37,816 nucleotides of DNA from the NCBI GenBank assembly GCA_021162935.1, contig JAGGXR010000097.1, positions 1 to 37,816 of the forward strand. The letters run 5' to 3'. Position numbers and translations under genes: made by a program. Positions within the stretch are counted from its first letter, which is position 1. Each line of letters begins with the position of its first letter. A model generated the notes under the pieces. That model was not told the DNA's origin and made no database searches. It was given only the letters and a program-made list of their open reading frames with translations. This DNA comes from Deltaproteobacteria bacterium. GTDB taxonomy: Bacteria > Myxococcota_A > Polyangia > HGW-17 > SLPX01. This document shows positions 10,199 through 15,863 of this stretch, in pieces.

Positions 10199-10342
10199 CC
10201 CCCTCCGTTTCAGGCAGTTTGCAGAAGCGGTCGAAAAAGAGGTGGGCCGCTGAGTTCGTGGAGAGCGCCAAGCAGACTGCGCATGGTGCATGCGCCGCAG
10301 TGGGCGCGTTGCAGATCATTTGACAACGGAGGTATCGCACCG

Positions 10343-12157
10343 ATGCTGGGTTCGCTACGTCGAAAATCCCGGTCGTTCATCGTCTGGGTCGTGTTTGGAT
10401 TTCTCATTGCCGTGTTCGTGATCGGGTTCGGGACGCCTGCCTCGAACAAGCTATCCTGCGGCAACCAACATGCCGTCGGCAAGGTCGGGCATTATGAACT
10501 GAGCAAGGACGACTATCAGTATGCGTTTCGACTCGTCATGCGTGAAGGCGCTCCGCCGACGTTGAAGGCCTTCATGCTGGACATGCTGATCCGACGCGAG
10601 ATCCTGGTCGAGGAAGCCAAAAAGCTGGGCTTCCAGTCTGCGGTGACTTCAGACGATGCGGCGGACGACCCGGACGTGGTCAACATGATCACGCATCGCA
10701 AGCTCCTCGTGTTGGGCTACGAGCGGGATCTCTTTCAACTTGGCGGATGGCCGGCGATGCGTGGTGCAAAGGGACGATATCACGCCTCGAAGGATTTCAA
10801 CTACGAGCATTTCAAGAAGTGGGTAAAATGGCGTCTCGGCCTGACGGTCGTCAAGTTCATGCAGGAGCAGCAGCGTGAGCTGCTCGCCAAGCAGATGTCC
10901 GACACGATCATGGCGTCGGTGCTGATCTCGAATGCCGAAGCCAGGGCCATGTATGAGGAGCGGCACACGAGGCTCGTGCTCCAGACTGCCGTGTTCGAGC
11001 GGTCCAAGTACGAGAAGAACGTGTTCGCCACGGGCTCCGAATTAACCGCTTTCCTGGCGGACAAGAAGAATGCGGATAAGGTGGCCGACCTGTATAAGAC
11101 GCGCTATGCGGACAAGAAGGATTTCGCCGATCAGCGTCGGGTCCGCCATATCCTGTTCAAGGTGGACAAGGCGGCCGACAAGGCCAAGGTCGAAGAGGTT
11201 CGCCGTGTCGCCATGAGAATGGCGCGCCGCCTAACCCCGGCGACCTTCGCCCAACAGGCGCAGACCCTCAGTCAGGACGATGCCTCCAAGGGTTCGGGCG
11301 GCCTGCTCGGTTGGGTCGCGCCCGATGATCTGACCTTTGGCAAGCCTTTCGCCAAGGCCGTGTTCGCCTTCAAGGACGGCACCGTGTCCGCCCCGATCCG
11401 TTCGGATGCCGGTTGGCACATCGTGCTCGTCGAGGGTCGGCGCAAGGGAACCTGGTCCCTCGAACAGGCACGCCGTTTCATCGCTTATGACATGGTCGTA
11501 TCCCAGAAGGCCCTCACCATGGCGCGCTCCCTGGCGGATCAGTCGTACCATCGCCTCAAGGTCGGTGCGTCGCCCGACGTGGTCTTCGCAAAGGACGCAG
11601 CAGGCGATGCCGGCAAGACGGCCGCAGCCTCGGGGGCAGCCAAGAAGCCCGCAAACGGCGCTGTGGCATCGGCGTCGCCGGCAGCTCCGGCTGCACCTAT
11701 GCCCGAGTTGCACCAGGTCACCCTCACTCGGACCACCACGGCCGTCGCCGGCATGGAAGAGGTCCAAGACCTCGTGCATCGTGTGTGGAAGCTGACGGAC
11801 AAAGACCCGCTCATCGGCAAGGTGATCGAGATCCGTAGGGGCGGCAAGGTCGCCGCCTTTGGGATCGTGCGCCGCAAGCAGCTCACCAAGCCAGACTGGA
11901 AGGAATTCCAGGCGCAAAAGAGCGAACTCATGGCGCGCTACCTGCGGACCAAGCAGGAGGACACCCTGAATCGTTGGGTTCGCGCCAAGTGCGACGCCAT
12001 GGCAGCCAAGGGTGAGATCGAAATCGCTCCGAACCTCAGGACCATCAAATACTATCCCAAGGGACAGCACGGCGAAGAAGAGTCCAAACCGATCACCATC
12101 GAGTATCATTACTGCAAGCAGCTTCCTCAGCACGCTTCGGACACCTTCGGTCAGTAA
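10343..12157 (+). CDS. PpiD-like membrane-anchored peptidyl-prolyl isomerase (parvulin/SurA family)
   Basis: This 604-residue protein starts at the ATG at 10343, which has an ideal GGAGGT 9 nt upstream; the in-frame start at 10283 lacks this. MLGSLRRKSRSFIVWVVFGF followed by about 12 hydrophobic residues is a single N-terminal membrane anchor, as in PpiD. A SurA-N-like helical region (about 40-240) precedes a parvulin (PpiC-type) domain at about 262-366 (RRVRHILFKVD, then KGSGGLLGWV and SDAGWHIVLVEGRR). An Ala/Pro-rich linker (about 415-450) leads to a C-terminal domain that may be a second, degenerate chaperone part. The protein would help fold envelope proteins in the periplasm, which suits a genome full of lipoproteins and beta-barrels. 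Confidence 0.88.
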   Translation: MLGSLRRKSRSFIVWVVFGFLIAVFVIGFGTPASNKLSCGNQHAVGKVGHYELSKDDYQYAFRLVMREGAPPTLKAFMLDMLIRREILVEEAKKLGFQSAVTSDDAADDPDVVNMITHRKLLVLGYERDLFQLGGWPAMRGAKGRYHASKDFNYEHFKKWVKWRLGLTVVKFMQEQQRELLAKQMSDTIMASVLISNAEARAMYEERHTRLVLQTAVFERSKYEKNVFATGSELTAFLADKKNADKVADLYKTRYADKKDFADQRRVRHILFKVDKAADKAKVEEVRRVAMRMARRLTPATFAQQAQTLSQDDASKGSGGLLGWVAPDDLTFGKPFAKAVFAFKDGTVSAPIRSDAGWHIVLVEGRRKGTWSLEQARRFIAYDMVVSQKALTMARSLADQSYHRLKVGASPDVVFAKDAAGDAGKTAAASGAAKKPANGAVASASPAAPAAPMPELHQVTLTRTTTAVAGMEEVQDLVHRVWKLTDKDPLIGKVIEIRRGGKVAAFGIVRRKQLTKPDWKEFQAQKSELMARYLRTKQEDTLNRWVRAKCDAMAAKGEIEIAPNLRTIKYYPKGQHGEEESKPITIEYHYCKQLPQHASDTFGQ

Positions 12158-12407: not shown

Positions 12408-12430
12408 TTTTTTGTGCACTGCACAAAAAA
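12408..12430. promoter_or_regulatory. Perfect TTGTGCA/TGCACAA palindrome, upstream operator candidate
   Basis: Two 11-bp arms (TTTTTTGTGCA and its complement) flank a single C. The palindrome lies just upstream of a possible -35 box (TTGACC, 12436). Its core TTGTGCA-N-TGCACAA recurs 34 bp downstream. Being centred on 1 nt, it suits a protein dimer site better than an RNA hairpin. The rest of the 385-bp gap from 12158 shows no gene. Confidence 0.65.
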
Positions 12431-12435
12431 TGCAC

Positions 12436-12462
12436 TTGACCCTCATGTTGAGACGACATAGT
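12436..12462 (+). promoter_or_regulatory. Weak promoter between the paired palindromes
   Basis: TTGACC (12436-12441) and CATAGT (12457-12462) are 15 nt apart; ATAGTT would give 16. The spacing is short, so the call rests mainly on position: the two related palindromes bracket it. Confidence 0.3.
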
Positions 12463-12463
12463 T

Positions 12464-12482
12464 TGTTGTGCGTTGCACAACA
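12464..12482. promoter_or_regulatory. Second TTGTGC/GCACAA palindrome, downstream operator candidate
   Basis: TGTTGTGC and GCACAACA flank GTT. It would overlap the expected transcription start of the phasin-like gene. Sharing TTGTGC/GCACAA with the upstream palindrome suggests one regulator bound at both. TGC/GCA-rich palindromes before phasin genes are the type of site bound by PhaR-like repressors; the match here is by general resemblance only. Confidence 0.6.
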
Positions 12483-12542
12483 TGCCGCCCGAAAAAGAGC
12501 GGTCAACAAGGCCCAAGGCCTGGAGGGTGAAAGGAGTTTATT

Positions 12543-12836
12543 ATGGCAACAACGACGAAGAAAGAACACGAGAACACGACGAATCAGTGGTGGGACGCCA
12601 TCAAGGCGTACAGCCCCGAGGAGTACCAGGGTTACTTCCGGCAGTGGTTCGATGCGGTCGAATCCTACCAGGATCAGGTCGTGAAGTTCCACAAGACCTT
12701 GGTGGAACGAGCGGAGGAGGCCTGGGACGAGTCGTATAAGCTGACCCGCGAGGGCGTCAAGCGTTCGGTGGAGTTCATGAACACCGTGCACGACATGACC
12801 CGTTCCCAGATCAAGCAGATGCGTGACCATCTCTAG
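12543..12836 (+). CDS. Phasin-like small amphipathic helical protein
   Basis: This 97-residue protein has AAGGAG 7 nt before its ATG. After a Thr/Lys/Glu-rich start, residues 15-97 read as nearly continuous amphipathic helix (FRQWFDAVESYQDQVVKFHK, then ERAEEAWDESYKLTREGVKR), with no Cys or Pro-rich break beyond residue 25. Size and pattern fit phasins, which coat polyhydroxyalkanoate granules; a generic coiled-coil or apolipoprotein-like protein is the alternative. It is monocistronic, flanked by long non-coding stretches, and preceded by two palindromes typical of tight repression. No PHA synthase gene lies in this window. Confidence 0.6.
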   Translation: MATTTKKEHENTTNQWWDAIKAYSPEEYQGYFRQWFDAVESYQDQVVKFHKTLVERAEEAWDESYKLTREGVKRSVEFMNTVHDMTRSQIKQMRDHL

Positions 12837-14401: not shown

Positions 14402-14534
14402 AACAGAGCAATTGGACGGTGGTTGGCTGAGGAAAGCACGTTCAGGAGCCATCAATGGGGTGGGTGACGGAAGGCAGGATGTGACGTTTGGTTAGAGATA
14501 CGAGATCGAGATGCATCAATTTAGGTTGGAATCA

Positions 14535-15863
14535 ATGAACGGAACGAGGATTTTGGCGAGGGCGTTGTTGCTGTCTGTCGTGGTCGCTGGCGGTTGCACC
14601 ATGGATTTTCCCCGGTCCTGGTGGGACCGTCCCTGCGGCAACGGTGTGCTCGACGAGGGCGAAGCCTGCGACGACGGAAATCAGTCGTCGGCCGATGGCT
14701 GTTCGAACCAGTGCCAGGTCGAAGATGGGTGGCATTGCGATGGAGAGCCGAGTGCATGTGCGGCGGATTGTGGGGACGGCAAGGCCGTGGGCACCGAAGA
14801 GTGCGACGATGGGAATCTGGCGAGCGGCGACGGGTGCGACATCCACTGCAAGCAGGAAGATGGCTGGGTCTGTGCAAATTCGGCAGATGGTCCGTCGGTC
14901 TGTGAGTCAAAATGTGGTGATGGTTTCATCAGGGCCGATGAGGTCTGTGACGACGGCAATACCGACTCGGGCGACGGTTGTTCGGCGAATTGTACACTCG
15001 AGGACGGGTGGACCTGCGACGACAACGAGCCCACCGTTTGCCAGCCTATTTGCGGCGACGGCAAGAAACTCGGCAACGAGGCCTGTGACGACGGCAATAC
15101 CGACGACTGCGACGGCTGCGCCGGGGACTGCAGCCACGAAGACGGCGTCTGCGGGGATGGCTACAGGGACTGTGGAGAGGCCTGCGATGACGGCAATACG
15201 GTGTCGGGGGACGGATGCCACGAGGATTGCAGCGCCGCGGATTGCTCGAACGGTTCTGTGACCGACTGCAACGCAGCCACGAACATCGCTAGTTCGGCAT
15301 TCGTGGACCCAGAGCCTCCTCCTGGATTCATCGAATGCGCTGGATTTCAGAATACTGCTGGAGACGACGTGGACAAGAACTGGGAGGTGAATTGTCTCGG
15401 TCATGATTGGATTCTGAGGATTCGGTACTGGGATACCAACACCGATCCATGGACCCTTTTGGGCGATGCCATCCTGAGTCCCGCCATCACGGCGGCATAT
15501 AACCAGGAGACCTTCGATGCCTCGAATCAGGGTGGAACCGAGGGCATGCTGGCGGATCAAGGCGTGGTGCTCCTCGAAGACGATCCCGCAGGCACCCAGG
15601 TTTCGAACGTGAGTTGCGATACGGATGGAGACCAAAAACCAAACTATGGTGCAAACGACCTGTACTTTGCCAATTCCACGAACACGAAGAACCTGTTTGT
15701 GTGCAGCGCGGAGGACGACCTCGTCGATGGCAATGGTCAGATCGTTCATTTGTGCGGGGCGGACCAGGAGTTGCTCCTCTTCAATGCGTCACTTGGGCAT
15801 TGCGCCCAGGATCCGGGAACCTTTACTCACCTTGCGATTGCCATATACTATCAGCTCCAATGA
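14535..15863 (+). CDS. Lipoprotein with Myxococcus-type cysteine-rich CDDGN repeats
   Basis: From the ATG at 14535 the protein has 442 residues and a clean lipoprotein signal (RILARALLLSVVVAGGC). An in-frame ATG at 14511 adds eight residues. About residues 30-240 hold tandem units with the pattern CGDGxxxxxExCDDGNxxxxDGCSxxC, the DUF4215 / myxococcal cysteine-rich repeat, ending near DGCHEDCSAADC. The remaining 190 residues form a separate globular domain (DKNWEVNCLGHDWILRIRYW onward) that I do not recognise. The repeats are disulfide-rich, probably calcium- or matrix-facing stalks on secreted proteins. Repeat units are also close at the DNA level (GACGACGGCAATACC recurs), suggesting recent unit duplication. 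Confidence 0.85.
   Translation: MNGTRILARALLLSVVVAGGCTMDFPRSWWDRPCGNGVLDEGEACDDGNQSSADGCSNQCQVEDGWHCDGEPSACAADCGDGKAVGTEECDDGNLASGDGCDIHCKQEDGWVCANSADGPSVCESKCGDGFIRADEVCDDGNTDSGDGCSANCTLEDGWTCDDNEPTVCQPICGDGKKLGNEACDDGNTDDCDGCAGDCSHEDGVCGDGYRDCGEACDDGNTVSGDGCHEDCSAADCSNGSVTDCNAATNIASSAFVDPEPPPGFIECAGFQNTAGDDVDKNWEVNCLGHDWILRIRYWDTNTDPWTLLGDAILSPAITAAYNQETFDASNQGGTEGMLADQGVVLLEDDPAGTQVSNVSCDTDGDQKPNYGANDLYFANSTNTKNLFVCSAEDDLVDGNGQIVHLCGADQELLLFNASLGHCAQDPGTFTHLAIAIYYQLQ

Follow-up and report, generated by a model that had tools for sequence, protein, structure and literature searches.

Predicted PhaR operators at the presumed promoter of a phasin-like gene in a probable Myxococcota lineage

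The control of phasins by PhaR was elucidated in alpha- and betaproteobacteria. The classical targets of this regulator are phasin genes (PMC12542648, PMC12849132). For S. meliloti PhaR, the motif WNWD2NYGCRNYGCRNH2WNW has been described, which includes an R-N-Y centre, and the phaP1 promoter, containing TTATTGTGCACTGCACAAATT, is efficiently shifted by PhaR in vitro (PMC12542648). A TGC-N3-GCA core is common also to PhaR of R. sphaeroides (PMC3206438). Among the papers of the literature collection searched, none joined Myxococcota, polyhydroxyalkanoate and phasin. The locus presented here lies in a window of 37,816 nucleotides, the whole stretch of DNA analysed, from a bacterium of this little-studied lineage. 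A protein encoded at window positions 14511-15863 contains five copies of the Myxococcus-type cysteine-rich repeat TIGR02232. This is the chief indication of the lineage and makes Myxococcota a likely, though not an established, assignment. The neighbours of TrxB in named genomes were mostly alphaproteobacteria, a comparison in which no synteny was used.

Two palindromes of one core are present in the sequence, as a preliminary description had claimed. The predicted operator O1 (12408..12430, without strand) has the core 12412-12426, TTGTGCACTGCACAA, that is TTGTGC-ACT-GCACAA, with T/A arms; the predicted operator O2 (12464..12482, without strand) has the core 12466-12480, TTGTGCGTTGCACAA, that is TTGTGC-GTT-GCACAA. 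O1 is a perfect inverted repeat with 11 bases on each side of the centre, while O2 pairs at positions 2-9 from the centre. Both have the R-N-Y centre, and the AT-rich arms are strongest in O1. O1 and O2 thus show the TGC-RNY-GCA core palindrome with AT-rich arms by which PhaR operators are recognised. The two centres are 54 bp apart, and the 15-bp cores are separated by 39 bp. When the extended palindromes are considered the gap is 33 bp, which corresponds to the 34 bp given at first. In the whole assembly of 5,126,809 bases (5.13 Mb), exact copies of TTGTGC-N3-GCACAA were found at O1 and O2 only, and copies with one mismatch were at background level (three, versus two for the reversed-pattern control). 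Given the base composition, chance alone would yield about 0.06 single RNY-centred sites per genome, and close pairs at about 6e-8. A shuffle test in which 43 of 100 shuffles reached two matches tolerated two mismatches, thus its figure is inapplicable to two perfect copies. The relaxed pattern TNNTGCRNYGCANNA occurred in this genome at 34 places, versus 15 for the control. A wider regulon in this genome was rejected, since exact copies are limited to this pair and, among the matches listed, the only relaxed close pair was again O1/O2.

The central 15 bases of TTATTGTGCACTGCACAAATT from the S. meliloti phaP1 promoter are identical to O1. A weight matrix was derived exclusively from S. meliloti sites at promoters with efficient PhaR binding. 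In the window it ranked O1 first with 28.75 bits and O2 second with 16.70 bits, followed by a third site with 11.79 bits. The maximum in 20 Markov-simulated windows was 16.68 bits. Judged by these sequence scores, the match of O1 to the PhaR matrix is decisive by itself, whereas O2 alone lies at the limit of what chance yields in a full window; its weight comes from its position.

O1 is located upstream of the presumed -35 element and O2 spans the presumed transcription start. The presumed promoter on the forward strand (12436..12464) consists of TTGACC (12436-12441), a 17-bp spacer and TAGTTT (12459-12464) and agrees with the consensus in 8 of 12 positions. A consensus scan for sigma-70 promoters yielded none above the threshold, with TTGACC/TAGTTT scoring below it, so that this promoter position, read from the sequence, is plausible but not established. 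If it is right, the O1 centre would be near -52 and the O2 centre near +2. The repressor layout seen in the preliminary description thus stood insofar as the palindromes bracket TTGACC/TAGTTT and their positions fit this promoter, while the promoter itself has the weaknesses just named and the gene behind it is phasin-like rather than a curated phasin. An AAAGGAG sequence, read as the ribosome-binding site (12530..12536, forward strand), precedes the ATG by 6 bases. Being a perfect inverted repeat downstream of a SurA-like gene (10283-12157), O1 may also be seen as an RNA hairpin or terminator of that gene and not as an operator. This is extremely improbable: on both strands the bases after the O1 hairpin are A rather than T, a terminator scan detected none, and the O1 core recurs elsewhere at phaR and phasin-like promoters. 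O1 as terminator was therefore rejected.

The presumed regulated gene (12543..12836, forward strand) encodes an all-helical protein of 97 amino acids. A single-sequence AlphaFold2 model predicted helices at residues 6-21, 25-59 and 69-96 with a mean pLDDT of 81, and the helical hydrophobic moment exceeded that of 99% of shuffles. The protein is thus small, helical and amphipathic, as phasins are. Searches against Pfam and NCBIfam revealed no family above cut-off, and the curated phasin families PF05597, PF09361 and TIGR01837 were unmatched. BLAST detected no relatives of the protein in 59 related genomes, a profile search in the order matched only the protein itself, and a fold search against the PDB gave no significant match. 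A profile was constructed from nine small open reading frames linked to sites in other genomes, leaving the window protein out; the window protein scored 18.9 bits with it, while none of about 2000 shuffles exceeded 11.6 bits. In hhalign the probability of a match to the site-linked small proteins was only 44%. The protein is best called phasin-like, on the basis of our own profile, the predicted fold and the context; the earlier naming of the gene as phasin-like holds on these grounds and finds no backing in the curated phasin families. The missing family match and the low hhalign probability would also suit another granule-associated or PHA-related helical protein under PhaR control that is no structural phasin. 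We regard this as unlikely in view of the small, amphipathic and helical character of the product, a profile match far above shuffles and the classical role of phasin genes as PhaR targets. Binding of the 97-residue protein to granules may be expected.

A search with PF07879 (PHB_acc_N, cut-off 25 bits) revealed two PhaR-type proteins in this genome, PhaR1 on contig C81 (L011:13384-14106; 95.5 bits) and PhaR2 on contig C107 (92.3 bits). PhaR2 spans positions 3-107 of the 107 positions of TIGR01848. Both proteins missed the equivalog cut-off of this model (109.45 bits; PhaR1 86.1, PhaR2 93.1) and are therefore called PhaR-type, not certified PhaR. In the search for a PHA-binding domain in PhaR1 and PhaR2, no Pfam domain besides PF07879 appeared at E 0.01 and no PHA-binding model matched. 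Contig C168 carries a cluster in the order phasin-like gene, phaJ-like gene, phaE and class III phaC (L014:132-3425). Its PhaC scored 494 bits with TIGR01836 (cut-off 365), and PhaE 134 bits with PF09712 (cut-off 25.7) but 115 bits with TIGR01834 (cut-off 155). PhaC adjoins PhaE, as is characteristic of class III PHA synthases. A second PhaC-like protein is encoded on contig C108. Absence of a PHA synthase or PhaR homologue from the genome was the first of the conditions that the preliminary description set against its own proposal; as the genome encodes two PHB_acc_N proteins along with PHA synthases, this objection lapses. The pha cluster on C168 starts 131 bp from the contig end, thus the assembly lacks the operon promoter and any operator that it may have. 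No good site was present at phaR1, phaR2 or the PhaC gene on C108. Autoregulation of phaR1 and phaR2 was rejected with best upstream scores of just 4.4 and 5.5 bits in the S. meliloti matrix.

Across the class, TTGTGCRNYGCACAA had 58 occurrences, spread over 45 of the 290 genomes searched, and the reversed pattern had four, in three genomes. Twenty-nine site loci were sampled from these matches together with 107 control loci. A PhaR domain was encoded within about 1.5 kb at 18 of the 29 site loci and at none of the 107 controls; these 18 loci belong to 11 genera, with six loci from one genus. A small phasin-like open reading frame was close to the site at about 14 loci, mostly starting about 65 to 170 bp away, a count that is partly circular because nine of these frames built the profile. 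The PhaR count is free of this circularity. Often the order was phaR, site, phasin-like gene. The expected recurrence of the motif was thus observed class-wide, beside phaR and phasin-like genes, and did not extend to this genome, where the perfect motif occurs nowhere else, its own phaR genes included. Of 379 genomes of the phylum searched with a strict paired-site pattern, only two gave a match: this genome and one other, where the match was to a tandem repeat. In that repeat of 69 bp (G179 C126:488-914; L028, L030-L034) each unit contains TGTGCTGCGCACA, and the paired pattern is matched by repetition only. In one genus (g273; L156-L160, L162) phaR is adjoined by two perfect sites that are separated by about 1017 bp; one of the two is located some 130 bp upstream of the gene for a protein that starts with MFIGDWMRRGAQYWPD and looks like an acyl-CoA synthetase.

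Motif identity by itself names no protein, and the TTGTG...CACAA half-sites resemble those of Rex, so that another dyad-binding regulator, e.g., of the Rex, GntR or MarR kind, may be thought to read the palindromes. Rex sites have 8 bases between TTGTG and CACAA, whereas the spacing is 5 here. The motif moreover accompanies phaR in at least 11 genera, and it is also present at clade-B phaR loci that were selected on the protein alone. Such a regulator is therefore very improbable.

Trees divided the PhaR proteins into two groups: clade B holds PhaR2 and every site-linked PhaR, clade A holds PhaR1. The alignment columns were few and the PhaR2 branch long, thus the exact placement of PhaR2 inside clade B is uncertain. 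A protein match alone, irrespective of the motif, served to pick 13 loci with a second PhaR copy. Ten of these 13 clade-B loci had a site of at least 16 bits no farther than about 3 kb away, in most cases a short distance upstream of phaR, while such a site was absent from all 29 clade-A loci (L115-L143; best score 12.8 bits). Seven further PhaR loci in the order (L187-L193) fell on the clade-A side and had no 16-bit site, the best score being 14.7 bits. Of the 12 other genomes of the order, not all of them complete, only two yielded a PhaC. Clade-A PhaR is widespread, has no PhaR-like site by its gene and occurs even in genomes of the order lacking detectable PhaC. Clade B alone goes with the sites, which makes PhaR2 (C107) rather than PhaR1 the predicted binder, as far as sequences can tell. 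The sites may still be PhaR operators that are read by PhaR1 (C81, clade A) or by both paralogues, as the PHB_acc_N domain is intact in PhaR1 and its most conserved part is common to both proteins. The 29 site-free clade-A loci and the clade-A PhaR in genomes of the order without detectable PhaC or site render this quite unlikely. We tentatively put forward, as a real possibility, that PhaR has split in this lineage: clade B would keep the classical PHA-sensing phasin circuit with a conserved operator, and clade A would read a different site and serve another regulon.

O1 and O2 are thus likely to be operators through which PhaR, most probably PhaR2, controls the phasin-like gene behind them, and they would be freed by PHA granules. 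In the absence of PHA, PhaR, most likely PhaR2, would occupy O1 and O2 and block RNA polymerase. Once granules form, PhaR would be pulled onto the polymer surface and the operators freed, whereupon the phasin would be made and the granules coated. Binding, repression and release by the polymer are assumed here by analogy to R. eutropha and S. meliloti. Computation showed the two sites and their agreement with characterised PhaR sites, the genes for PhaR and PHA synthase, and, across the class, that the motif is linked to clade-B phaR and to phasin-like genes. The PhaR-type repressor named as the expected binder in the preliminary description is supported by the PHB_acc_N proteins, by the match in site sequence and layout and by the recurrence in the class. 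A near letter-for-letter operator in a probable Myxococcota lineage implies that the recognition code of PhaR sites was kept very long. The motif offers a route to phasins overlooked by curated families, and the clade split tells which of the two PhaR paralogues to test.

As O1 and O2 match known PhaR sites, it is very probable that the known circuit of phasin control by PhaR is at work in this lineage, and the case is a well-supported new instance of it. The single perfect operator pair and the lack of visible phaR autoregulation depart from the best-studied cases. Autoregulation of phaR is known from Ralstonia eutropha (PMC3570403) and was not seen here. PhbF of Herbaspirillum seropedicae shares the TGC-N3-GCA core and represses phaP1; unlike here, its consensus TG[N]TGC[N]3GCAA lacks the full TTGTGC arms, and it binds eleven promoters and is autorepressed (PMC3206438). 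The R. eutropha phaP1 promoter has degenerate palindromes and a further site predicted within the gene, but, like here, one PhaR site is directly upstream of the -35 element and another around the transcription start (PMC12849132). S. meliloti PhaR (AniA) controls a regulon of about 50 promoters, compared to one perfect pair here, and its sites are spaced by 18 and 28 bp, compared to 54 bp here (PMC12542648). The likeness of its phaP1 and phaP2 promoters to the present locus includes the same 15-mer TTGTGCACTGCACAA, the YGC-RNY-GCR core, the AT-rich arms and the occurrence of two sites within a phasin promoter (PMC12542648).
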